The position numbers and the translations under genes were made by a program. A DNA stretch of 64,000 nucleotides, taken from Gordonibacter sp. An230 (GTDB lineage Bacteria > Actinomycetota > Coriobacteriia > Coriobacteriales > Eggerthellaceae). The stretch lies in contig NZ_NFJP01000007.1 in assembly GCF_002159915.1 (NCBI RefSeq), positions 1-64,000 on the forward strand, read 5' to 3'. This document shows positions 30,001 through 44,750 of this stretch, one piece after another. The number at the start of each line of letters is the position of its first letter. Position 1 is the stretch's first letter. The notes under the pieces were generated by a model. The model saw only the letters and a program-made list of their open reading frames with translations, was not told the DNA's origin and searched no databases.

Positions 30001-30687
30001 TCAGTGCTTGAGGTCGTCCTCGCCTACGATCGCGTGCTTCTCAGGATCGTAGACCAAGCCGCCGTGCTCCTTGTGGAAGAACATGAGCAGCGTCGGGGAG
30101 ATGCCCTCGATGTTCGCCAGGTACACGTGGATGAGCATGAAGCAGATGAAGATGTACATCATGAAGTAATGGATGATGCGCATCGACATGAGGCCGCCCA
30201 CCAGATCGGTGCCCGCCGCGAAGAACCCGAGGTTCATCGTGGGGTTCCAGAGAGCCAGACCCGTGTAGAACATCACGATGATGAGGACGGGAATGGCAAG
30301 GTAGCTGATCTTCTGGGGCACGCCGAGTTTGGCGGACAGCGGATGGTCCTTCTTGAGGAACAGATAGTACCTGATCCAGTGAATGCCCTGATGACGGTTG
30401 TCAGCCTGCGGCAGCCACGTCTTGTAGTCCGTCACCTGCACACGCGTGCCGCCGGTAGGCGACGACTTCACGAAGAAGGCCATGACCACGCGGGCGATGC
30501 AGTTGATGAACAGCACGAACCCGCAGAACACGTGCACGCCACGGGCAATGCCCATGAAGTACGGCCAAAACGGGAAGTGGATGCAGAAGCCGGTGACGAT
30601 GAGCAGGATCATCGCCACAAGGTTGATCCAGTGCGTGATGACGAAGGGCATCGGATGCGCTTCGCGGTAGTGTGCCAAATGCGCCAT
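30001..30687 (-). CDS. hyaC: NiFe-hydrogenase b-type cytochrome subunit
   Basis: A 228-residue membrane protein with four or five helices. HWINLVAMILLIVTGFCIHFPFW (residues about 19-41), GVHVFCGFVLFINCIARV, then IRYYLF, YLAIPVLIIVMFYTGL and IIHYFMMYIFICFMLIHVYL supply several His positions for two b haems, matching the HyaC/HupC family. It takes electrons from the HyaAB dimer on the outer face and passes them to menaquinone. It is the last gene of the operon, one base after the hyaB stop, followed by the strong terminator at 29921-29959. Confidence 0.93.
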   Translation of the reverse strand: MAHLAHYREAHPMPFVITHWINLVAMILLIVTGFCIHFPFWPYFMGIARGVHVFCGFVLFINCIARVVMAFFVKSSPTGGTRVQVTDYKTWLPQADNRHQGIHWIRYYLFLKKDHPLSAKLGVPQKISYLAIPVLIIVMFYTGLALWNPTMNLGFFAAGTDLVGGLMSMRIIHYFMMYIFICFMLIHVYLANIEGISPTLLMFFHKEHGGLVYDPEKHAIVGEDDLKH

Positions 30688-30688
30688 G

Positions 30689-32335
30689 TTACTTCACCCC
30701 CCAGGGGCTCGTGACCGTCTCGAAGCTCTTGCCCGTGGCCGGCTCGGTGATGTGGACGGCGCACGCCGTGCACGGATCGAAGCTGTGAACCGTGCGCAGA
30801 GCGTTGATCGGCTTCTCGATATCGCCGACCGGCACGCCGACGAGCGCCTGCTCGAGCGGGCCCGGGACCCCTTGCGCATCGCGCGGAGCGAGGTTCCAGG
30901 TGGAGGGGATGATGATCTGATAGCCCGTGATCTTCCCGTCCTTGACCTCCTCGCTGTGGTAAAGCGCTCCGCGAGGAGCCTCCCAGAAGCCGGTGCCGGC
31001 CCCCGTGATCCCCTCAGGCTTGCGGAAGTACTCGCCATCTCCGCTCTTGACAGCCTCGATAAGCTCGTCAACCCACTCTTTCATGAGACCGGCGATGTAG
31101 AGCGTCTCGATCTGGCGGATGGCGGTGCGGCCAAGCGTCGACTGCGCGATGCTTATCTGGCCGGGAGCGCCAAGGGCCTCGAGGAGGGAGTCCACCTGCT
31201 CCACGACGAACGGGACGTTTCGCTTGTAAGCAACGAGGATGCGGGACAAGCTGGTCGCCTCGTAAGGTTTTCCATCATAGGAAGGGCACTTGACCCATGT
31301 GTAGCGATCGTTCACATCGTAGGACGTGTACTCCGGCTCCGTCGTGAAATACGGAGCGTTGTAGCTATCGCTTCCTTTGTACCACGAGCGACCGACGTAT
31401 TCCGTTATGAGGCTTTCCTGCGCGTCGGACAGCGAAAGGGAGTCGTCCAAAACGCCCATGGGAAGGTAACGGTCCACCATCTCCATGCTCTGATTCTCGA
31501 AGACGCCCCAGGCCAGGTAGCGACCGCAGCCCTTGCCCCAATCGAAGGCATCAGCGTAATGGGGGGCGAGCGCCAACGTGTCGGGGATCATCGTGGAGGC
31601 AACCCACGTGTACAGCTCGTCGACGAGTCCCTTTAGATCATCGAGCTTCTGATCGGTCGGAACGAAGGAAGTGCCTCCCGGAACGAGCGTCATGATATGG
31701 GGCATTTTCCCGCCGAGCAAAGCCGATATCTCGGAAGCCTTCGCCTGCATGGTGAGCGCCTCGAGGTAATGCGCCGTGCAGATGAGGTCGAGCTCGGGCG
31801 GCAGCGTATAAGCCGTGCCGTCCTCGGCGTCGAACCAGTTGCCGGAGAAGATGGACAGCTGGCCGTTATCGGCGAAAGCAGACAGGCGCTCCTTGAGTGC
31901 CACGAAATCGCTGTTCGTGGACGTTCCCGCCTCGAGCGCCAGCGCATAGGCGTCGGCCGGATCGGCCTTGAGGGCGTTCAAGGGGTTCACGTAATCGAGA
32001 GCGGCCAAGTTGTAGAACCACAGGATGTTGCTATGCAGGAACTGGGATCCCTCGAGAAGGTTGCGGATGATGCGCGCGTTGTTGGAAATCTTGATGCCGT
32101 AGGCCTTTTCGGCCGCAATGGAGGACGCATGGGCATGAGAGACCGGGCACACGCCGCAGATGCGCTGCACGATTTGCGCAGCGTCTTCGGGCGTGCGGTT
32201 CTCCACGACCATCTCCATGCCTCGGAAGCAGCCGCCGGACACCCAAGCGTCGGAGACCTTGCCGTTCTCTACTTCCATCTCCACGCGCAGATGGCCCTCG
32301 ATGCGGGTGATCGGATCGATGACTGAACGGGTCAT
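30689..32335 (-). CDS. hyaB: NiFe-hydrogenase large (catalytic) subunit
   Basis: A 548-residue group 1-type NiFe subunit. DPITRIEGHLRVEMEVE opens the protein; RICGVCPVSHAHAS (about 58-71) is the N-terminal CxxC nickel pair and DPCTACAVH (about 518-526) the C-terminal pair. About 22 residues follow the final His; they form the peptide removed by the maturation protease HyaD after metal insertion. It oxidises or evolves H2 as a dimer with HyaA and is carried across the membrane on HyaA's Tat signal. It sits 6 bases after hyaA. Confidence 0.96.
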   Translation of the reverse strand: MTRSVIDPITRIEGHLRVEMEVENGKVSDAWVSGGCFRGMEMVVENRTPEDAAQIVQRICGVCPVSHAHASSIAAEKAYGIKISNNARIIRNLLEGSQFLHSNILWFYNLAALDYVNPLNALKADPADAYALALEAGTSTNSDFVALKERLSAFADNGQLSIFSGNWFDAEDGTAYTLPPELDLICTAHYLEALTMQAKASEISALLGGKMPHIMTLVPGGTSFVPTDQKLDDLKGLVDELYTWVASTMIPDTLALAPHYADAFDWGKGCGRYLAWGVFENQSMEMVDRYLPMGVLDDSLSLSDAQESLITEYVGRSWYKGSDSYNAPYFTTEPEYTSYDVNDRYTWVKCPSYDGKPYEATSLSRILVAYKRNVPFVVEQVDSLLEALGAPGQISIAQSTLGRTAIRQIETLYIAGLMKEWVDELIEAVKSGDGEYFRKPEGITGAGTGFWEAPRGALYHSEEVKDGKITGYQIIIPSTWNLAPRDAQGVPGPLEQALVGVPVGDIEKPINALRTVHSFDPCTACAVHITEPATGKSFETVTSPWGVK

Positions 32336-32341
32336 GTGGGC

Positions 32342-33586
32342 TTACCTCCCTTCCTTCTTGTCGTTGGGAACGTCGGCGGCGTCGTACTTGCCGATGGATT
32401 TGTCGGGATGCTTCGCGTCCCAGCTGCGGACCTTCTCGAAATCGGCGCCGCCGTCCATGCGGCCCGTGATCTTCATGCCGAAGCCGTGCACGACGAGCGC
32501 GGCGGCCAGAATGCCGGTGATGCCGAGCGCGATGGTTCCCGGCTGCACCATCCAGTCGCCGATGCGCAGGTCGCGATGGCGCTTGTAGAACGGGGTGTTC
32601 ACCTCGACCCAGTTGTGGCCGGGGTCGTTCGGGTTCGCCTCGCAGCATCCAATGCAGGGAGCTCCGGCCTGGACGCACCAGCTGCGACGATTGTTATAAA
32701 GAACGACGCCGCAATTGGCCTTCGTCTGCGGACCGCGGCAGCCGAGCGGGTAGAGGCAGTAGCCAAGGGCCTCCTCCTTGCTGCCGAACTCGTAGACGAA
32801 CTCTCCGTTCTCGAAATGGCCGCGACGCTCGCAGTTGTCATGCACGGTCTGGCCGAAGATGCCGGCGGGCTTGCCTTCGCTCGTCAGGTCGAGCTCGGAA
32901 GGAGCAAGGCTCAGAAGCACGACGTCGGCAAGAACGGCGACGAGCCACTCGGGGTTCGCCGGGCATCCCGGGACGTTCACGACCGGCGTGCCGACGCCCT
33001 GCTTCTTCAGGTACTCCTGCACGCCGAGCGCGCCCGCCTGGTTGGGATGCGCGCCCATCCAGCCGCCGTTGACCGCGCACGAGCCGAGCGCGACCACCAC
33101 CGCGGCGGACTCGGCCGCTTCATACAGATGCTCCGTGCCCGGCTTGTCGGCGACGCGCAGCGCCTGGCCGCCCCAGCCTTCGAGCACGGCCCCCTCGTAC
33201 ACGAGGATGTAGTTTCCGGCGCACTCCTTGATGGTCTGCTCTTTGGCCAGCTCCATCGACTCACCGGCCGCGGCCGACAAGGTTTCCGAATAGTTCAGCG
33301 AGATCATTTCCAGCACGATCGACGCGGCATCAGGAGCCTCGAGCTTCGCGAACGCCTCCGTGCAGCCCGTGCACGACGCTCCTTCGATCCAGATGACCGG
33401 GTACAGCTTGCCTTTCGCTGCGCCGATCACGGACGACTCAAGGGCCTGCGCCACGCGGGGCGCTGCGAGCTCGGACAGCCCCGCTGCGACCGCGACCGCG
33501 CCACAGAGCTTCATGAAACTGCGTCGGCTGACGCCGCGTGCGGAAAGCATCTGCTGAAACTCCGAAACCGTGGCCTCTGTTTCCAT
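32342..33586 (-). CDS. hyaA: NiFe-hydrogenase small subunit, Tat-exported
   Basis: A 414-residue Fe-S subunit. The Tat signal SRRSFMKLCGAVAVAAGL (twin Arg 21-22) is followed by WIEGASCTGCTEAF (proximal cluster), GCPANP, CERRGHF with CLYPLGCRGPQTKANC, and CVQAGAPCIGCCE (distal clusters). A single C-terminal helix (LGITGILAAALVVHGFGM) anchors it in the membrane. It passes electrons from the NiFe site to HyaC. ATG 33586 is preferred to GTG 33592, because GAGGAGGT directly abuts the GTG. A 28-bp dyad upstream (33709-33736) may control the operon. Confidence 0.94.
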   Translation of the reverse strand: METEATVSEFQQMLSARGVSRRSFMKLCGAVAVAAGLSELAAPRVAQALESSVIGAAKGKLYPVIWIEGASCTGCTEAFAKLEAPDAASIVLEMISLNYSETLSAAAGESMELAKEQTIKECAGNYILVYEGAVLEGWGGQALRVADKPGTEHLYEAAESAAVVVALGSCAVNGGWMGAHPNQAGALGVQEYLKKQGVGTPVVNVPGCPANPEWLVAVLADVVLLSLAPSELDLTSEGKPAGIFGQTVHDNCERRGHFENGEFVYEFGSKEEALGYCLYPLGCRGPQTKANCGVVLYNNRRSWCVQAGAPCIGCCEANPNDPGHNWVEVNTPFYKRHRDLRIGDWMVQPGTIALGITGILAAALVVHGFGMKITGRMDGGADFEKVRSWDAKHPDKSIGKYDAADVPNDKKEGR

Positions 33587-33708
33587 GTGCACACCTCCTC
33601 AGGTGCTCTCGTCTTCCCTTTTCTCTGGTCACGTATTCTCCACGACGTGCGAAACAAACGGGAGAACATGCGCGCGAGCGCAACGTTTGGCCCGCCAATG
33701 GCATGAAA

Positions 33709-36242: not shown

Positions 36243-36863
36243 CTACCCGACGAGAGCCCCCAGGAATGCGGCAGCGTCGCGGTAGAAGGGGATGCGGGTC
36301 TTTGCGGCGACGGCCTCGGCGAAGCGGGGCATCCAGGCCAAGGCGTGCTCGGCGAGGAAGGCGTCGTGGGCAGCTTCGGGCGAGCCTCCGGGGAGGCCGT
36401 CGTCCGCAGGAGCGCCCTCGGGCGGCTCGGCGCCTGCGGCGCGCAGGGCGAGGCGCTCCAGGAGCTCGCATTCGGTGGCGACATGGTCGAGCGGCTCGTT
36501 CGTGCCCTCGGGGCGGCCGAGGCCGCAGGATTTCATGAAGCGCTCGACGGCCATGGAGTGCGGGTTGACGAAGAGGAGCGCCTGAACCCCGTCGTCGGAG
36601 GCGCGCCACACGCCCTCGTAGGGCGAGACCGCCGGCTCCGGCGCGCCGACGAAGAGGCGCGTCGCCTCGGGGCGCAATCCCTCGGCGGAGAGCTCGGAGC
36701 CGAAGCCCTCCGGCAGCGCGAGGCCGAGCGCGGCCGCCACCTCACGGGCGGCCTCGGCCCACTCGCCGGACGCGACGGCACCGGCGAGCTCCGCGCCCGG
36801 GTAGCGGAAGGAGAGGGCGGCCAGCTCCCAGGCGGTCGCGACGACCTGCCAGTCCCTATTCAT
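36243..36863 (-). CDS. TorD/DmsD-family molybdoenzyme chaperone
   Basis: A 206-residue all-helical cytoplasmic protein. YEGVWRASDDGVQALLFVNPHSMAVERFMKSCGL and EPLDHVATECELLERLAL (E-P-x-D-H motif, about residues 124-128) are the TorD-family hallmarks. It would bind the Tat signal of the catalytic subunit encoded at 39585-42146 and hold it for cofactor insertion before export. The start overlaps the DUF4405 gene by 8 bases; ATG 36863 follows AAGGGAAGGG. It is the last gene of the six-gene operon. Confidence 0.88.
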   Translation of the reverse strand: MNRDWQVVATAWELAALSFRYPGAELAGAVASGEWAEAAREVAAALGLALPEGFGSELSAEGLRPEATRLFVGAPEPAVSPYEGVWRASDDGVQALLFVNPHSMAVERFMKSCGLGRPEGTNEPLDHVATECELLERLALRAAGAEPPEGAPADDGLPGGSPEAAHDAFLAEHALAWMPRFAEAVAAKTRIPFYRDAAAFLGALVG

Positions 36864-37296
36864 GATCCCTTCCCTTCTTCAAGAAACGGGCGATCCACTT
36901 CCAATGTACGACGACGTGCACCAGCAGCAAGGCCAGCAGCGCCTTGGCCGACATCGCGTGCAGGGGATCCCAGAAGTAGTACCCCTCCGCGTAGAGCCCC
37001 AGCGCCGGCAGCACCGCGCCGGACACCATGACACCGGAGACCGTGGCCGCCATGAAGACCAAGACGATCAGCAGGTCGAGCGCCAGGTTGCCCGTGCGGC
37101 CCCACGACGGATGCGAGAACGACCCCCGCAGGGCCTCAACCGCCCAGTCCGCGTGCAACAACAGGTGCACGAAGAACGCGACGAAGACGCCCAGCCCCAG
37201 CCACTCGTGGAGGCCGATCCCCGTGAGCGCGGGGTTCGCGACGACGAGGTAGGCCGCCAGCGCCGCAATGTCGACGATCAGGTTGCGCCTGTCCAT
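36856..37296 (-). CDS. DUF4405 b-type cytochrome-like membrane protein
   Basis: A 146-residue protein of four membrane helices with paired His positions: GLHEWLGLGVFVAFFVHLLLHADW (residues about 28-51), then DPLHAMSAKALLALLLVHVVVHWKWI (about 108-133). This is the DUF4405 (cytochrome b561/FdnI-like) pattern of haem-ligating His on two helices. It could take electrons from quinol or from the neighbouring CX4CH protein. The operon already has an NrfD anchor, so a second membrane electron carrier is unusual. It begins 3 bases after the preceding stop. Confidence 0.8.
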   Translation of the reverse strand: MDRRNLIVDIAALAAYLVVANPALTGIGLHEWLGLGVFVAFFVHLLLHADWAVEALRGSFSHPSWGRTGNLALDLLIVLVFMAATVSGVMVSGAVLPALGLYAEGYYFWDPLHAMSAKALLALLLVHVVVHWKWIARFLKKGRDHE

Positions 37297-37299
37297 GGC

Positions 37300-37656
37300 T
37301 CACCCCACCTTCCGCACGATCAAGACCAAGCCCACCACGAGGGCCACCGGCGCGAGAAGCCACAAGTTGAGGCTCGCGTCGCTCGCCTGGTGGTAGCGCG
37401 TCGTGAGCGAGTCCCACGCGTGGCACTCGACGCTCGCGCACAAGGCCTCGGGGCACTTCATCTCGTGCACGCCGCCCGGCTCGGGCACGGCGTCGAAGCC
37501 GTGGCACTCCCCGTTCGCGCAGCCGACGGCCGGGCAGGGAGACTCCGCCGTTATCGGCGAGACCCCCGTGGACGGCTCCGCAGCAAAGCCCGCAGCCAGC
37601 ACCACGCCGCCCGCGAGCAGGAAGACGGCGAGCGTTACCAGGATTCTTCTCAGCAT
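37300..37656 (-). CDS. small membrane-anchored protein with two CX4CH motifs (putative c-type cytochrome)
   Basis: A 118-residue protein: N-terminal signal helix (MLRRILVTLAVFLLAGGVVLAAGF), a short extracytoplasmic domain and a C-terminal anchor helix (NLWLLAPVALVVGLVLI) with a positive end. The domain contains an internal duplication, CPAVGCANGECHGFD and CPEALCASVECHAWD, that is CPx3CAx2ECHx(F/W)D twice. Each copy contains CX4CH, a haem-c attachment variant known from Desulfovibrio cytochrome c3. Two covalent haems or a metal site are possible. I do not recognise a family. It lies between the NrfD anchor and a b-type cytochrome, so an electron-transfer role is likely. GGAAGGGGAG precedes the ATG. 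Confidence 0.7.
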   Translation of the reverse strand: MLRRILVTLAVFLLAGGVVLAAGFAAEPSTGVSPITAESPCPAVGCANGECHGFDAVPEPGGVHEMKCPEALCASVECHAWDSLTTRYHQASDASLNLWLLAPVALVVGLVLIVRKVG

Positions 37657-38961: not shown

Positions 38962-39582
38962 CTAGACGAGGTAGTAGACGGAGGGCTCGGTGCCCTTCTC
39001 CGGAAGCAGCTGCATAACCTCGCGCTCGCGGATCAAGCGCGACACTTCGGACTCGGGATCGTCCAAATCGCCCCAGAAACGCGCTCTTTCGGGGCATAAG
39101 CGTATGCACGCGGGCTCCTCGTCCTTGGCCAGCCGATGCCAGCACATCGTGCACTTCTCCACCACGTGCTTCTGATGCCGAGGGACGTCTGAACCGCCGA
39201 TGGAAAAATCGATCACATACTTCGGCTCCTCCCAGTTGAACGAGCGCACGCCGGTGTAGGGGCACGCCGCCATGCACATGCGGCAACCGATGCACTTGTC
39301 GTAGTCCTGGCGCACGACGCCCGTTTCAGAGTCGACGTAGGTCGCACCCACCGGACACACCTTCACGCATGCGGGATTGGCGCAATGCTGGCACGAAACC
39401 GCGATGTAGGACATGGCGACATCCGGAAAGAGGCCTTCGGGCGTGTCCATCTCCTCGCCGCCGTCGGTGAGGATCCTGTTCCACCATGTCCCCTTCGGCA
39501 AGTTGTTCTCCATGCGGCAGCTCACCGAGCAGGTATGGCAGCCGATGCATCGCTGCGTGTCTATCGCAAATCCGTAACGCAT
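38962..39582 (-). CDS. DmsB-like four-cluster 4Fe-4S electron-transfer subunit
   Basis: A 206-residue ferredoxin subunit with four Cys groups: CIGCHTCSVSC (residues 12-22), CQHCANPACVKVCP (about 64-77), CIGCRMCMAACP (about 97-108) and CTMCWHRLAKDEEPACIRLCP (about 143-163). This is the DmsB/PsrB/NrfC architecture. It shuttles electrons between the NrfD anchor and the catalytic subunit on the outside of the membrane. No own signal peptide: it travels with the catalytic subunit. ATG 39582 is supported by GGAGGG. Confidence 0.94.
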   Translation of the reverse strand: MRYGFAIDTQRCIGCHTCSVSCRMENNLPKGTWWNRILTDGGEEMDTPEGLFPDVAMSYIAVSCQHCANPACVKVCPVGATYVDSETGVVRQDYDKCIGCRMCMAACPYTGVRSFNWEEPKYVIDFSIGGSDVPRHQKHVVEKCTMCWHRLAKDEEPACIRLCPERARFWGDLDDPESEVSRLIREREVMQLLPEKGTEPSVYYLV

Positions 39583-39584
39583 GA

Positions 39585-42146
39585 TCAGCCCTCCCACTTC
39601 TTGAAATCGACGCGCGTGTCGTAAGGCGCGATCGAATCAGAGTACTTGTCCGTCTTAGGATTGGTCATCTCCTGGTAGCAACCGGCTTTGAACTGGTCAC
39701 GTTGCCAACCCTTGGGAATGGAGACGATGCCCGGGGCGATCGATTCGTCGATCAGGCATTTGACCACCGCGAAACCGCGATCGTTGAACACCTCGATGTA
39801 ATCGCCGTTTGCAACGCCCCGCGCCTCGGCATCCGCCCCGTTGACCTTGCCGAGAGGCTCGGGGTCGAGCTCGCGCAGGACGGGAGTCTCGTACCATTGA
39901 GTGTGGACGCGGAAGCGGGAATGCTCCTGCAAGTAGACGAGCGGGTATTTCTCGGCCATGGGGCTGTCGATTCCGCACTCGTCTGGCTCGCGGAAGTAGA
40001 CGATGTGCTCGTCGGGATCGCGATCGGCAAGGTCCTGCCCATAGCTTAAACGCGGCGCGACCGCCTCATAATACAGCTGAACGCGTCCGGATTGGGTCGG
40101 CCAGGGAGCGCTTTTTCCACGAATCCAGGGCTTTCCCTCCTCTTGGCCGGTGTAGTTGATGACCTTCTCCTTGCGCAACCTTTCCTCAGAATAGCCGGCA
40201 TCCTGCGAAACCTTGTCCGAGAACAGGAGTTTGAGCCAAAGCGACGTGTCGTTCCAAGTGTCCTCCGGGAAAGAGGCTTCGTACCCCAAGGCGCGGCCGA
40301 GCATCCCGATGATCTCCAGGTCGCTTTTCGTGTCATGCAAAGGCTCGATGGCCTTCTCGCTCAAAGTCATGTACGGGTTGTTGTAAGCCGTGCGCAGATC
40401 TTCCTTCTCGTACCAAGAAGCCACCGGTAGGATCAGGTCGCAATAACGGCACGAGTCGTTCATCTCCATATCGAGCACGATCCAATACTCCACGTTAGGA
40501 AGCACCTTGCTGATCCACTCGTTCTGCCCAACCATGTTGCTCATGGGGTTGTGGCAGTAGGATACGAGCACCTTCGCAGGATAGTCCTTGCCTTCGAGTT
40601 TCTGCGTCTCGAACATCTCAGGCAGACGAACGTTGGGGACGTTGGTGTTGTACTCCTTGAATTCCGGCGTGTTGAACCAGTAGGTTGTCAACGCGGGCGT
40701 GTAGGTCTGGGTGAACACTCCCGTGAAGCCCGCTCCATCGCGCTCGAACTGCCCGCACAGCGCCAGCAAGATGGCGACGGCCCACGTGTTGAGGTAGCCG
40801 TTCACGTAATGATCCAACCCGTAGGTGATGTTGACGGAGACGGCGCGCTCGGTTGCGAACTCCTTGGCCAAAGAGACGATACGGTCCTCGGGAACCCCAG
40901 TGAGTCGCGACGCCTCGGCAATGCTGTATTGGGTGAGCTGCTCCTTGAGCAAGCTGAAGGCCGTCGTCACCTTGACGCCGTCGGGCGTGGTGAACGTGCC
41001 TTCGAGCACCGGATTCGCAGCCTCTTCAACGAGAACGGGCGCGTTCACATCTGCATCCCACACATAGTATTTGTTGGGTACGGCAGCTGCTGCGGCGGCC
41101 ATGGCAGCTGCCCCGCTGGCCTTGGCGGCCTCTTTCGCCGCACCGACGGCCGACGCGTACGCCGCGGCGCTTTCGGCCGGCCAGTTGCTCGTGCGCAAAT
41201 GCGCTTTCGTGTCTTCCCTGACGAGGAAGGGGCCCGTCGATTCGGACATGATGTAGTCAGTGTTCTGCAGATCGTTCTCGATCAGGTAGTTCGCCATAGC
41301 GAGCGCTAGGTACCCGTCGTATCCGGGCTTCACGCAGATCCATTCGTCAGAGCGATGCGCAGTGGCCGACTTGATCGGATCGATGGTGATGACACGCGTA
41401 CCCCGCTCTTTCGCCCACTGGATCCATCGCCAATTCTGCGGCGCAGTGAAAACGGGGTTGGTGCCCCACACCACCACGAGCGACGAGTCCAGCACCGAAT
41501 TGGGCTCGTTGCAGTACGCCCAGTCGCCCGTTCCGAGAACGCGGTTGATGCCGTAGCCTGCGGCATAGTCGTAGCAAACAGCCGTTTTGGTCGCGCCCAT
41601 GACGCCAGCCAACCGTGCGAACTGATTGTACACGCCGTTGAAGTAGCCGTACTGCCCCGACGCGCAATCGAATATGATCGATTTCGGACCGAACTGGTCG
41701 GCTGCCGCCTTGATCTTCTCGGCCGCCTCCGTCATGGCTTCGTCCCAGCTGATGGCCTCCCATTCGCCCGCGCCGCGCTCCGAGCCGGCGACGCGCCTCA
41801 GGGGCTGTTTGATGCGCGTCGGGCTGTAGACGCGCTCAATGTACGCGGAGCCTTTCAAGCAGCCGCCGCGATACCCCTCGTTGGGATAATCTCCCGGCTC
41901 AAGCTTGACCAGCTTGCCGTCTTTAACGTGTGCGAGCCAGCGGCACGATCCCATACAGTTGGAACGGCACATCACGCTGAAGATCTCCTCGTTTTCCCCC
42001 GCACGAGAGTTGTCGTCGAGAGATGAGGCAACCGCAAGCCCTCCTCCCAGCAAGCCGCTGCAAGCCGCAATGCCGGCCGTCGCCCCCGTCGTCTTCAAAA
42101 AGCTCCTGCGAGTCAGCCCGGTATGCGGACTGCTTGTTCCTGACAT
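39585..42146 (-). CDS. Tat-exported molybdopterin oxidoreductase, DMSO-reductase family catalytic subunit
   Basis: An 853-residue enzyme. Tat signal TRRSFLKTTGATAGIAACSG (twin Arg 13-14). The [4Fe-4S] site is CRSNCMGSCRW...GGCLKG (about residues 59-98). Molybdopterin motifs VVWGTNPVFTAPQNWRWIQWAKERG and HRSDEWICVKPGYDGYLALAMANYLIE follow, and a C-terminal cofactor-binding domain (EHSRFRVHTQW). An Ala-rich insert occurs near 350-370. The substrate is not readable; Eggerthellaceae use this family for DMSO-like, catechol and other acceptors. It is the first gene of the operon, with GAGGAGGAG before ATG 42146 and a dyad-containing promoter upstream. Confidence 0.93.
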   Translation of the reverse strand: MSGTSSPHTGLTRRSFLKTTGATAGIAACSGLLGGGLAVASSLDDNSRAGENEEIFSVMCRSNCMGSCRWLAHVKDGKLVKLEPGDYPNEGYRGGCLKGSAYIERVYSPTRIKQPLRRVAGSERGAGEWEAISWDEAMTEAAEKIKAAADQFGPKSIIFDCASGQYGYFNGVYNQFARLAGVMGATKTAVCYDYAAGYGINRVLGTGDWAYCNEPNSVLDSSLVVVWGTNPVFTAPQNWRWIQWAKERGTRVITIDPIKSATAHRSDEWICVKPGYDGYLALAMANYLIENDLQNTDYIMSESTGPFLVREDTKAHLRTSNWPAESAAAYASAVGAAKEAAKASGAAAMAAAAAAVPNKYYVWDADVNAPVLVEEAANPVLEGTFTTPDGVKVTTAFSLLKEQLTQYSIAEASRLTGVPEDRIVSLAKEFATERAVSVNITYGLDHYVNGYLNTWAVAILLALCGQFERDGAGFTGVFTQTYTPALTTYWFNTPEFKEYNTNVPNVRLPEMFETQKLEGKDYPAKVLVSYCHNPMSNMVGQNEWISKVLPNVEYWIVLDMEMNDSCRYCDLILPVASWYEKEDLRTAYNNPYMTLSEKAIEPLHDTKSDLEIIGMLGRALGYEASFPEDTWNDTSLWLKLLFSDKVSQDAGYSEERLRKEKVINYTGQEEGKPWIRGKSAPWPTQSGRVQLYYEAVAPRLSYGQDLADRDPDEHIVYFREPDECGIDSPMAEKYPLVYLQEHSRFRVHTQWYETPVLRELDPEPLGKVNGADAEARGVANGDYIEVFNDRGFAVVKCLIDESIAPGIVSIPKGWQRDQFKAGCYQEMTNPKTDKYSDSIAPYDTRVDFKKWEG

Positions 42147-43832: not shown

Positions 43833-44711
43833 TCATACCGCACTGAGCACGAGCGGCGAAAAGCTCGCCGCGGCCACGATGCAATACCTCAGAAGAAGTC
43901 CACCGACCAGCACGCCGAGCGATGCGGCCAACATGGCAGCGCGCCCGGGAAGCGCCCGCTCGAACGCATGCGCGGCCAGCGGCAGGGCGAGCCCCGTCGC
44001 GACCACGCCGCCCCAGAACATCGGGGCGAGCCGACCTTCGAGCAGCAGTTCGCACGAGGCGCGCGCCGAGTCCGTGAACCCGCTCTGCACGACGACGAAC
44101 GCCGCGAGCACCGCGGCCTCGACGCAGCCGAGCGCCGCACCCGCCTTCCACAGCCCTCGCGAAACCTCGTACGACGGCGGCGCGAGGGCCGCGTCGAGCG
44201 CCACGATGACCGCGACGCCGCACGACAGAGACGACGCGACGAACAGCGCGACGAGCCACGGCGTGCGCCAGAAGTCGATCGACACCATGTCCGACAGCAA
44301 CAGCCCCGTGTAGCCCATCACGCCGAGCGCGCAGGGAGCCCCGACGACGCAGCACGTCCATAAAAGCGCGCGCGGGACCGAGCCGAGCGCCGCGCTTGCC
44401 GCCACGGCGCACGACGCCGCGGCCAGCAGCGCCACGAGCCATGCGCCTGCCGACATCACCGACTGGAACGGCGAGAGGACGACGAGCCATGCGCGCTGGG
44501 CGTTGCCTAGGTCGAGCAGTAGGAAGAGCGCCGCGAGCACCACGAGGCAGGGCGCGGCGTAGAACCCCGCCTGACAGGTGCGCAGCATCCGCTCGCTCGC
44601 ATCGCTGCGGACCGCGGCGTCCCACATGCTCGCGCAGGAGGCCGCGAAGAACGCGCCGGCGCCCGCCCCCGCCAAAAACAGGTACGCCACGATGTACCAG
44701 CCGAACACCAC
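43833..44711 (-). CDS. orphan NrfD-family membrane protein
   Basis: A roughly 292-residue protein with about eight membrane helices that begins VVFGWYIVAYLFLAGAGAGAFF, the NrfD first-helix pattern. LLLDLGNAQRAWLVVLSPFQSVMSAGAW matches the second. No ferredoxin or catalytic subunit lies beside it. Start: GTG 44711 or 44708, with GGGGAG upstream; an upstream GTG at 44741 would leave almost no leader from the extended -10 at 44751-44759. It may dock with a remote Fe-S subunit such as the DmsB-like one, or form a new quinone-linked unit with the SPFH protein. Confidence 0.75.
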   Translation of the reverse strand: MVFGWYIVAYLFLAGAGAGAFFAASCASMWDAAVRSDASERMLRTCQAGFYAAPCLVVLAALFLLLDLGNAQRAWLVVLSPFQSVMSAGAWLVALLAAASCAVAASAALGSVPRALLWTCCVVGAPCALGVMGYTGLLLSDMVSIDFWRTPWLVALFVASSLSCGVAVIVALDAALAPPSYEVSRGLWKAGAALGCVEAAVLAAFVVVQSGFTDSARASCELLLEGRLAPMFWGGVVATGLALPLAAHAFERALPGRAAMLAASLGVLVGGLLLRYCIVAAASFSPLVLSAV

Positions 44712-44750
44712 CGCACTCCCCTTTGACGCGACGATTTTCACGCTGCTGCC

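Follow-up and report, generated by a model that had tools for sequence, protein, structure and literature searches.

The operon and its two added genes

The window, that is, the whole stretch of 64,000 nucleotides analysed here, holds an operon in which a Pfam scan gave the order molybdopterin catalytic subunit (CAT), ferredoxin subunit (FES), NrfD-type membrane subunit, a small protein (SMALL), a DUF4405 membrane protein and a TorD/NarJ-type chaperone (Table 1). With PF00384/PF01568, PF13247 and PF03916 all over their cut-offs, the subunit set of an NrfD-type molybdoenzyme is complete. The closest PDB sequence relatives of CAT are DMSO-reductase type II enzymes, and its TAT_signal match is weak and below the cut-off (E 0.0075). 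For FES, the ATG at 39582 was taken as the start over a GTG at 39597; its NCBIfam scores lie below cut-off both for ArrB (194.4 against 450 bits) and for DsrO (182.8 against 200 bits), and the top NCBIfam model for NrfD is DsrP, at 147 bits against a cut-off of 350. SMALL is separated by 63 bases from the upstream NrfD gene and by 3 bases from the downstream DUF4405 gene.

Two other groups of genes in the window are of note in their own right. The stretch 30001-33592 (minus strand) encodes the small subunit, the large subunit and the cytochrome b of a [NiFe] hydrogenase, a likely source of electrons for the quinone pool; its cytochrome b (30001-30687, whole protein) passes PF14358, yet PF01292 fits it better. 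A second, distant NrfD-type gene (43833-44741, minus strand, 302 aa) has genes for a GntR regulator and an SPFH protein close by, and no molybdenum subunit was recognised among the scanned neighbours.

Table 1. Genes and protein segments of the operon, and the radical-SAM genes found in other cassettes
Feature	Position	Strand	Basis or remark
CAT, molybdopterin catalytic subunit, Tat-like N-terminus, 853 aa	39585..42146	minus	PF00384 1.9e-38, PF01568 6e-17
FES, DmsB/ArrB-type ferredoxin subunit	38962..39582	minus	PF13247 2.8e-18
NrfD-type membrane subunit, 408 aa	37720..38946	minus	PF03916 2.5e-40
SMALL, putative di-haem c-type protein, 118 aa	37300..37656	minus	ATG start
SMALL, N-terminal signal/anchor segment, residues 1-29	37570..37656	minus	hydropathy; AF2 helix 2-26
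SMALL, motif 1 CPAVGCANGECH, C41-H52	37501..37536	minus	14 diverse members
SMALL, motif 2 CPEALCASVECH, C68-H79	37420..37455	minus	14 diverse members
SMALL, C-terminal membrane segment, residues 92-118	37303..37383	minus	hydropathy; AF2 helix 76-117
DUF4405, putative four-helix membrane cytochrome b	36856..37296	minus	PF14358 2.8e-10
TorD/NarJ-type chaperone	36243..36863	minus	PF02613 2.1e-22; overlaps DUF4405 gene end
Radical-SAM gene in NrfD-SMALL gap	L006:6607-8001, L050:7763-9151, L052:6138-7544

The SMALL ORF reads MLRRIL...CPAVGCANGECHGFD...CPEALCASVECHAWD...VRKVG and contains two CPx3Cx4CH motifs, each holding a CX4CH. The original prediction, made from this DNA alone, had placed a 118-residue ORF between NrfD and DUF4405 genes, given it a signal helix, a C-terminal anchor and a duplicated CX4CH motif, and assigned the standard catalytic, ferredoxin and NrfD subunits to the same operon; all of this is borne out, by the PF03916 and PF14358 neighbours, by hydropathy, by the family sequences described below and by the Pfam matches, respectively. 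Among 14 diverse members, the invariant residues number 10, and every one lies inside the motifs: C41, P42, C46, C51 and H52 in the first, and C68, P69, C73, C78 and H79 in the second (14/14 for each). Each motif thus carries a third invariant cysteine (C41, C68), which comes from the CPx3C part. Both motifs with identical spacing are found in 51 of the 54 distinct sequences of the family, while two are partial and one, from a metagenome-assembled genome (MAG), has a spacing of 5 in repeat 2 (L011); in a further MAG locus (L017), the two repeats are fused into one. Both variants may be assembly errors, since both are MAG-derived. The AF2 model of SMALL has a mean pLDDT of 61.8, and residues 41-91 have no confident fold.

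The protein had been described as unrecognised, and it stays so: searches of Pfam, NCBIfam and PDB sequences by single sequence, by profile and member by member gave no credible relative. Matches dismissed as chance were DUF3040, LAX (0.005, in one of the 14 members), CcmH (0.069, also in one of 14), a riboflavin-binding protein (0.19) and REF6 (1.8). Judged by sequence, the CPx3Cx4CH units define an undescribed protein family.

The partner of SMALL is better defined. DUF4405 scores 41 bits with PF14358 against a cut-off of 26.7, and its AF2 model consists of four long helices (pLDDT 89.9). His30, His44, His113 and His127 are invariant (36/36 and 28/28 sequences); His30 and His44, in helix 27-47, are spaced 14 residues apart, as are His113 and His127 in helix 106-130, which is the arrangement of di-haem membrane cytochromes b. 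The four invariant histidines therefore fit two haems b. In VIA-align, the two top matches for the model were di-haem cytochromes b, first the cytochrome b subunit of formate dehydrogenase-N (1kqf_C, Z 8.7, rmsd 4.1, 142 aligned residues) and then that of hydrogenase-1 (6g94_B, Z 8.0, rmsd 4.5, 118 aligned); for a helical-bundle protein these matches are weak and suggestive only, because unrelated bundles come close behind at Z 7.8. Foldseek gave no match to the model at E <= 0.001. A purified DUF4405 protein contained haem b (PMC11334425) which, together with the invariant histidines, supports the earlier assignment of the neighbour as a b-type cytochrome.

Distribution of the pair and exchange of the catalytic subunit

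SMALL relatives occur in 49 of 138 genomes of the bacterial family (E <= 0.001), 28 of which have two or three matches, partial ones counted; the genome that holds the window has three SMALL genes. A profile search of 396 genomes of the class gave 51 matches, six of them outside the family, and a search of 396 genomes of the phylum gave 11, of which only the eight from family members (our genome included) are credible. The other three phylum matches (G444, G536 and G720, E 0.001-0.005) were rejected as chance: the G536 match holds two TGA codons, and C-x4-C-x(2-6)-CH was not found when L101 and L102, the loci of G536 and G720, were scanned for it. A class match in G134, with two stops inside it, was rejected likewise. 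Those in G153 and G221 (E 3.5e-4 and 0.0044) were retained, because the match holds the motif and adjoins a DUF4405 gene. The loci that were recovered with flanks are a part of the SMALL matches from the 138 family genomes, and the genera of at least 15 loci, from a named genome collection, are presumably Eggerthellaceae; Rubneribacter badeniensis and Paraeggerthella hongkongensis are two of the carriers in that collection.

The synteny search that had been proposed for this gene set reveals a conserved cassette, spread through the family: of the 42 loci compared that span 8 kb or more, 40 have the order CAT-FES-NrfD-SMALL-DUF4405, and contig ends cut the other two. This count leaves out loci under 8 kb, L018, L080-L085 and L089, and it contains repeat records (e.g., L013/L088 and L016/L065); 37 cassettes are left after repeats are removed by sequence. 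Departures within these 37 concern the space between NrfD and SMALL, which exceeds 300 bases in four cassettes. In three, this gap holds a radical-SAM gene (PF04055 over cut-off) some 465 codons long; its highest-scoring NCBIfam models are those of maturases (HxsC, PqqE), at scores far under the cut-offs, and its product might modify SMALL or the enzyme. The fourth (L076) has a chaperone gene in this place. In our genome, three PF14358 matches are over cut-off, one adjoining each SMALL, and each of the three SMALL genes has next to it an NrfD gene from a single clade (77-100% identical), with three further NrfD-type genes (at most 42% identical) lacking SMALL. The same genome also has, at L083:5572-10792 (G000:C23), a CAT-FES-NrfD-chaperone operon without SMALL and DUF4405. 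Its NrfD is only 42% identical, which indicates that the SMALL-DUF4405 pair goes with one NrfD clade only.

Within the cassette, the genes differ widely in how much they vary. Once L011, L017 and L076 had been dropped for broken or partial genes, single-linkage clustering at 50% identity of the 34 intact distinct cassettes gave 16 clusters for CAT, two for FES, one for NrfD, two for SMALL and four for DUF4405. Between the three cassettes of our genome, the CATs are 33-37% identical, the NrfDs 78-81% and the SMALLs 72-88%. Over all 37 cassettes, and with kinship ignored, the rank correlation of pairwise identities with those of SMALL is 0.75 for NrfD, 0.58 for DUF4405, 0.39 for FES and 0.32 for CAT. 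The most direct case is one locus present in two MAGs (L012 and L013, the latter also recorded as L088), in which the surrounding DNA is 92-98% identical, SMALL and DUF4405 are 99% identical, NrfD 84%, FES 68% and CAT 36%. These identities point to replacement of the catalytic genes with the electron-transfer genes largely retained, a natural exchange of the catalytic subunit. As far as sequence comparison goes, the catalytic subunit is exchanged freely on a conserved FES-NrfD-SMALL-DUF4405 base, and the exchanged heads would differ in specificity.

Readings of the SMALL-DUF4405 pair

We consider it moderately probable that SMALL and DUF4405 form a portable b/c cytochrome pair that provides an accessory electron path for NrfD-type molybdoenzymes. 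SMALL would be a c-type cytochrome tethered to the cytoplasmic membrane, with its two CX4CH haem sites on the outer side, and DUF4405 would be a cytochrome b within the membrane whose two haems are stacked to span the bilayer. Together they would make a two-gene b/c electron-transfer pair. In Eggerthellaceae, this pair would be the regular accessory to a single clade of complex iron-sulphur molybdoenzymes of the NrfD type, in which FES, NrfD, SMALL and DUF4405 would constitute a conserved chassis and catalytic subunits of differing specificity would be swapped on top. The likeliest flow would run from menaquinol to the haems b of DUF4405, then to the haems c of SMALL, the FeS subunit and the Mo site, by a route parallel to the usual NrfD quinol site; we infer this direction, as we do haem attachment, topology and the physical association of the two proteins.

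The partners of the pair outside the cassette bear on whether its electrons are meant for the molybdoenzyme of the operon. In three distant genomes, a SMALL-DUF4405 pair occurs without NrfD. At L080:8146-14578 (G156), SMALL and DUF4405 stand at the end of a run of genes that begins with a Tat flavoprotein and continues with a multihaem cytochrome and with NuoL-like and NuoH-like proteins; this run may represent a complex-I-like module linked to a flavin reductase in the periplasm. At L081 (G153) and L082 (G221), the order is reversed to DUF4405-SMALL and no redox gene directly adjoins the pair, and L081 has a multihaem ORF (11 CXXCH) about 5 kb away. The SMALL of L081 has one CPx3Cx4CH unit and then a stop, so that the unit, going by its motif, can occur once or twice per protein. 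The finding of the pair without NrfD suggests that the pair, rather than the NrfD enzyme, is the functional unit. These three loci would also suit a separate quinol oxidase (or reductase) branch made of SMALL and DUF4405 and feeding another extracytoplasmic partner, not the molybdoenzyme of the operon. We regard such a branch as possible but rather doubtful, as the pair always lies downstream of NrfD, FES and CAT where the locus is uncut (40 loci), and the strongest co-variation of SMALL is with NrfD.

Whether SMALL binds haem at all is the second question. The haem reading is supported by the motif, the export signal, the b-type partner and the presence of Ccm genes. Our genome has a Ccm cluster (G000:C16) with ccmE, ccmF, a ccmA-like ABC ATPase, ccmB and a second PF01578 gene (ccmC-like), preceded by genes for two cytochromes, an NrfA-type cytochrome c552 and an NrfH-like PF14537 protein. 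The original prediction was thus right to look for cytochrome c maturation, although the system present is Ccm System I and not the CcsA/ResB that it had named; the PF05140 matches for ResB (System II) reach 16 and 20.5 bits, under the 24.6 cut-off, and the matching protein is CcmF. The CcmE motif is KCPSKY, of the CXXXY type, and Ccm systems of this type carry the label System I*. CcmE of the CXXXY type has been reported in Desulfovibrio and archaea (PMC9084895, PMC3884852). A search of our genome (97% complete) for CcmH gave no match. As a side observation, the ORF at L085:3409-4122 (G000:C16) holds two tandem CcmE domains, with CXXXY once, at the end of the first domain, and CcmE matches number two per genome in the 113 CcmE-bearing family genomes (four in G113) and likewise in five other Coriobacteriia genomes.

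CcmE is common overall (113/138 family genomes), and it is found in 47 of the 49 SMALL-bearing family genomes against 66 of the 89 without SMALL (Fisher p 0.0008, kinship ignored), as well as in five of six SMALL-bearing genomes outside the family. The exception outside the family, G407 (77% complete), has three SMALL copies, with CcmE and PF01578 not found. Those within it are G061 (56% complete), in which CcmE was not found and a PF01578 gene is present, and G018 (98% complete), in which neither was found. The G018 contig, of 11.9 kb, was probably misbinned or recently acquired, because long stretches of it are a 92-98% match to another genus.

The CX4CH spacing was called rare in the original prediction, which does not hold in this lineage. 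The PF14537 protein of our genome (L085) has the haem sites CNAICH, CMGCH, CLNEACH, CSECH and CTQCH, with CX3CH and CX4CH among them, and the multihaem cytochrome of L080 has one CX4CH site. Candidate sixth ligands in SMALL are M66 (M in 51/53), H64 (H in 43/53) and H89 (H in 33/54), and the family alignment (53-54 sequences) contains no invariant His or Met outside the motifs. In the sister family f6 (L075-L079), repeat 1 reads CX6CH in every one of the five sequences, a possible, if unusual, spacing for haem attachment. The haem reading alone gives no explanation for the third invariant cysteine; C41 and C68 could be sixth ligands, form a disulphide or be part of another metal site.

It is on these points that a non-haem SMALL draws, in which the CPx3Cx4CH unit would be another metal site, a thiol/disulphide relay or an enzyme-modified site, with DUF4405 moving electrons to or from it. 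Three invariant cysteines and one histidine per unit, the shift to CX6CH in f6, the missing invariant sixth ligand, the lack of similarity to a known cytochrome family, the single-unit form in L081 and, in 3 of the 37 cassettes, a weakly maturase-like radical-SAM gene immediately ahead of SMALL are all consistent with it. However, CX4CH is kept at both units in all but three of the family sequences, nearly all carriers inside and outside the family have CcmE, SMALL is partnered by a b-type cytochrome, CX4CH also serves in undisputed cytochromes of this lineage, and 33 of 37 cassettes, that of the window included, have no radical-SAM gene in the gap. We therefore judge a non-haem SMALL to be unlikely. 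Still less likely are SMALL and DUF4405 as assembly or protection factors for the enzyme, outside the electron path: their genes do stand between the structural genes and the chaperone gene, and the same genome does have a CAT-FES-NrfD-chaperone operon without them (L083), but the four invariant histidines of DUF4405 are of the haem-ligand type, SMALL follows NrfD more than CAT, while a CAT maturation factor should follow CAT, and the pair is also present in an operon without a molybdoenzyme (L080).

The accessory b/c cytochrome pair on a shared NrfD base, which is the reading that we prefer, can be taken further. FES, NrfD, SMALL and DUF4405 might be a general energy-conserving respiratory base of gut Coriobacteriia with a Q-cycle-like, charge-separating arrangement, a proposal to which we give little credence. 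Quinol would be oxidised at NrfD; one electron would reach the exchangeable molybdenum head by way of FeS, and the second would travel via the haem c of SMALL and the two haems b of DUF4405, recrossing the membrane to a second quinone site; the SMALL haem would possibly be Cys-ligated, explaining the third invariant cysteine, and the bacteria would breathe on organic compounds with parts unrelated to cytochrome bc1.

These readings bear on how exported molybdenum enzymes of this kind are supplied with electrons and on whether they conserve energy. If our preferred reading is true, a haem b/c pair that these enzymes share on the same NrfD base would provide one electron-input point for the whole enzyme class, and new substrates could be gained by swapping one or two genes. 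The question touches on gut Actinobacteria such as Eggerthella, in which molybdenum enzymes act on catecholamines and diet-derived catechols (PMC7028382). NrfD-type complexes would gain a new subunit set as well as an undescribed protein family, that of the CPx3Cx4CH units.

Comparison with known systems

The nearest known systems are the NrfD-anchored molybdoenzymes, namely PsrABC, DmsABC, ArrABC and the catechol dehydroxylases of E. lenta, which share with the window operon the molybdopterin subunit, the four-cluster-type ferredoxin, NrfD and a TorD-type chaperone. The difference lies in the two extra genes, SMALL and DUF4405: no further (haem) subunit appears in the rows for Psr, Dms, Arr and Sre in Table 1 of PMC8076601, and published accounts of the E. 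lenta dehydroxylases give them three subunits, namely a catalytic one, a 4Fe-4S one and a membrane anchor (PMC7028382, PMC11574389). DsrMKJOP consists in part of the NrfD subunit DsrP, the ferredoxin DsrO, the haem c subunit DsrJ (three haems) and the di-haem b subunit DsrM, and a proposal exists that quinone cycles between the two halves of this complex (PMC8076601). It likewise combines NrfD and a ferredoxin with a small haem c and a di-haem b protein, and the NrfD and FES of the window score well on DsrP and DsrO. However, both stay under the cut-offs of these models, a molybdenum subunit takes the place of the cytoplasmic DsrK, the operon genes include no DsrK and no CXXCH tri-haem DsrJ, and SMALL has CX4CH with an extra cysteine and no NCBIfam match. 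QrcABCD and alternative complex III are also NrfD-type complexes with ferredoxin and haem c subunits. Unlike these, the window operon has no multihaem QrcA/ActA and has an added cytochrome b, and its scores are far from those of Qrc (NrfD 53.6 against 570 bits for QrcD; FES 157.5 against 400 bits for QrcC).

The two added genes have relatives or parallels of their own elsewhere. The DUF4405 cytochromes of flavinylation systems are PF14358 membrane proteins with conserved histidines, of which a homologue binds haem b (PMC11334425), but they are partnered by flavinylated proteins and ApbE, and the DUF4405 protein of the window by a CX4CH protein. Cytochromes c3 and the PF14537 membrane cytochromes have CX4CH haem sites; unlike them, SMALL has three cysteines per unit, and none of the 14 members matches PF02085 or PF14537 even with the threshold at E 1. 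DUF4405 and NrfD are both mentioned in PMC8865925. The original prediction that no described enzyme has such a subunit set agrees with the open-licence PMC literature, in which we found no description of the SMALL family or of the NrfD, CX4CH and DUF4405 set. NrfD-type molybdoenzymes are themselves known, and what we rate as new is a molybdenum NrfD enzyme with an added b/c cytochrome pair.
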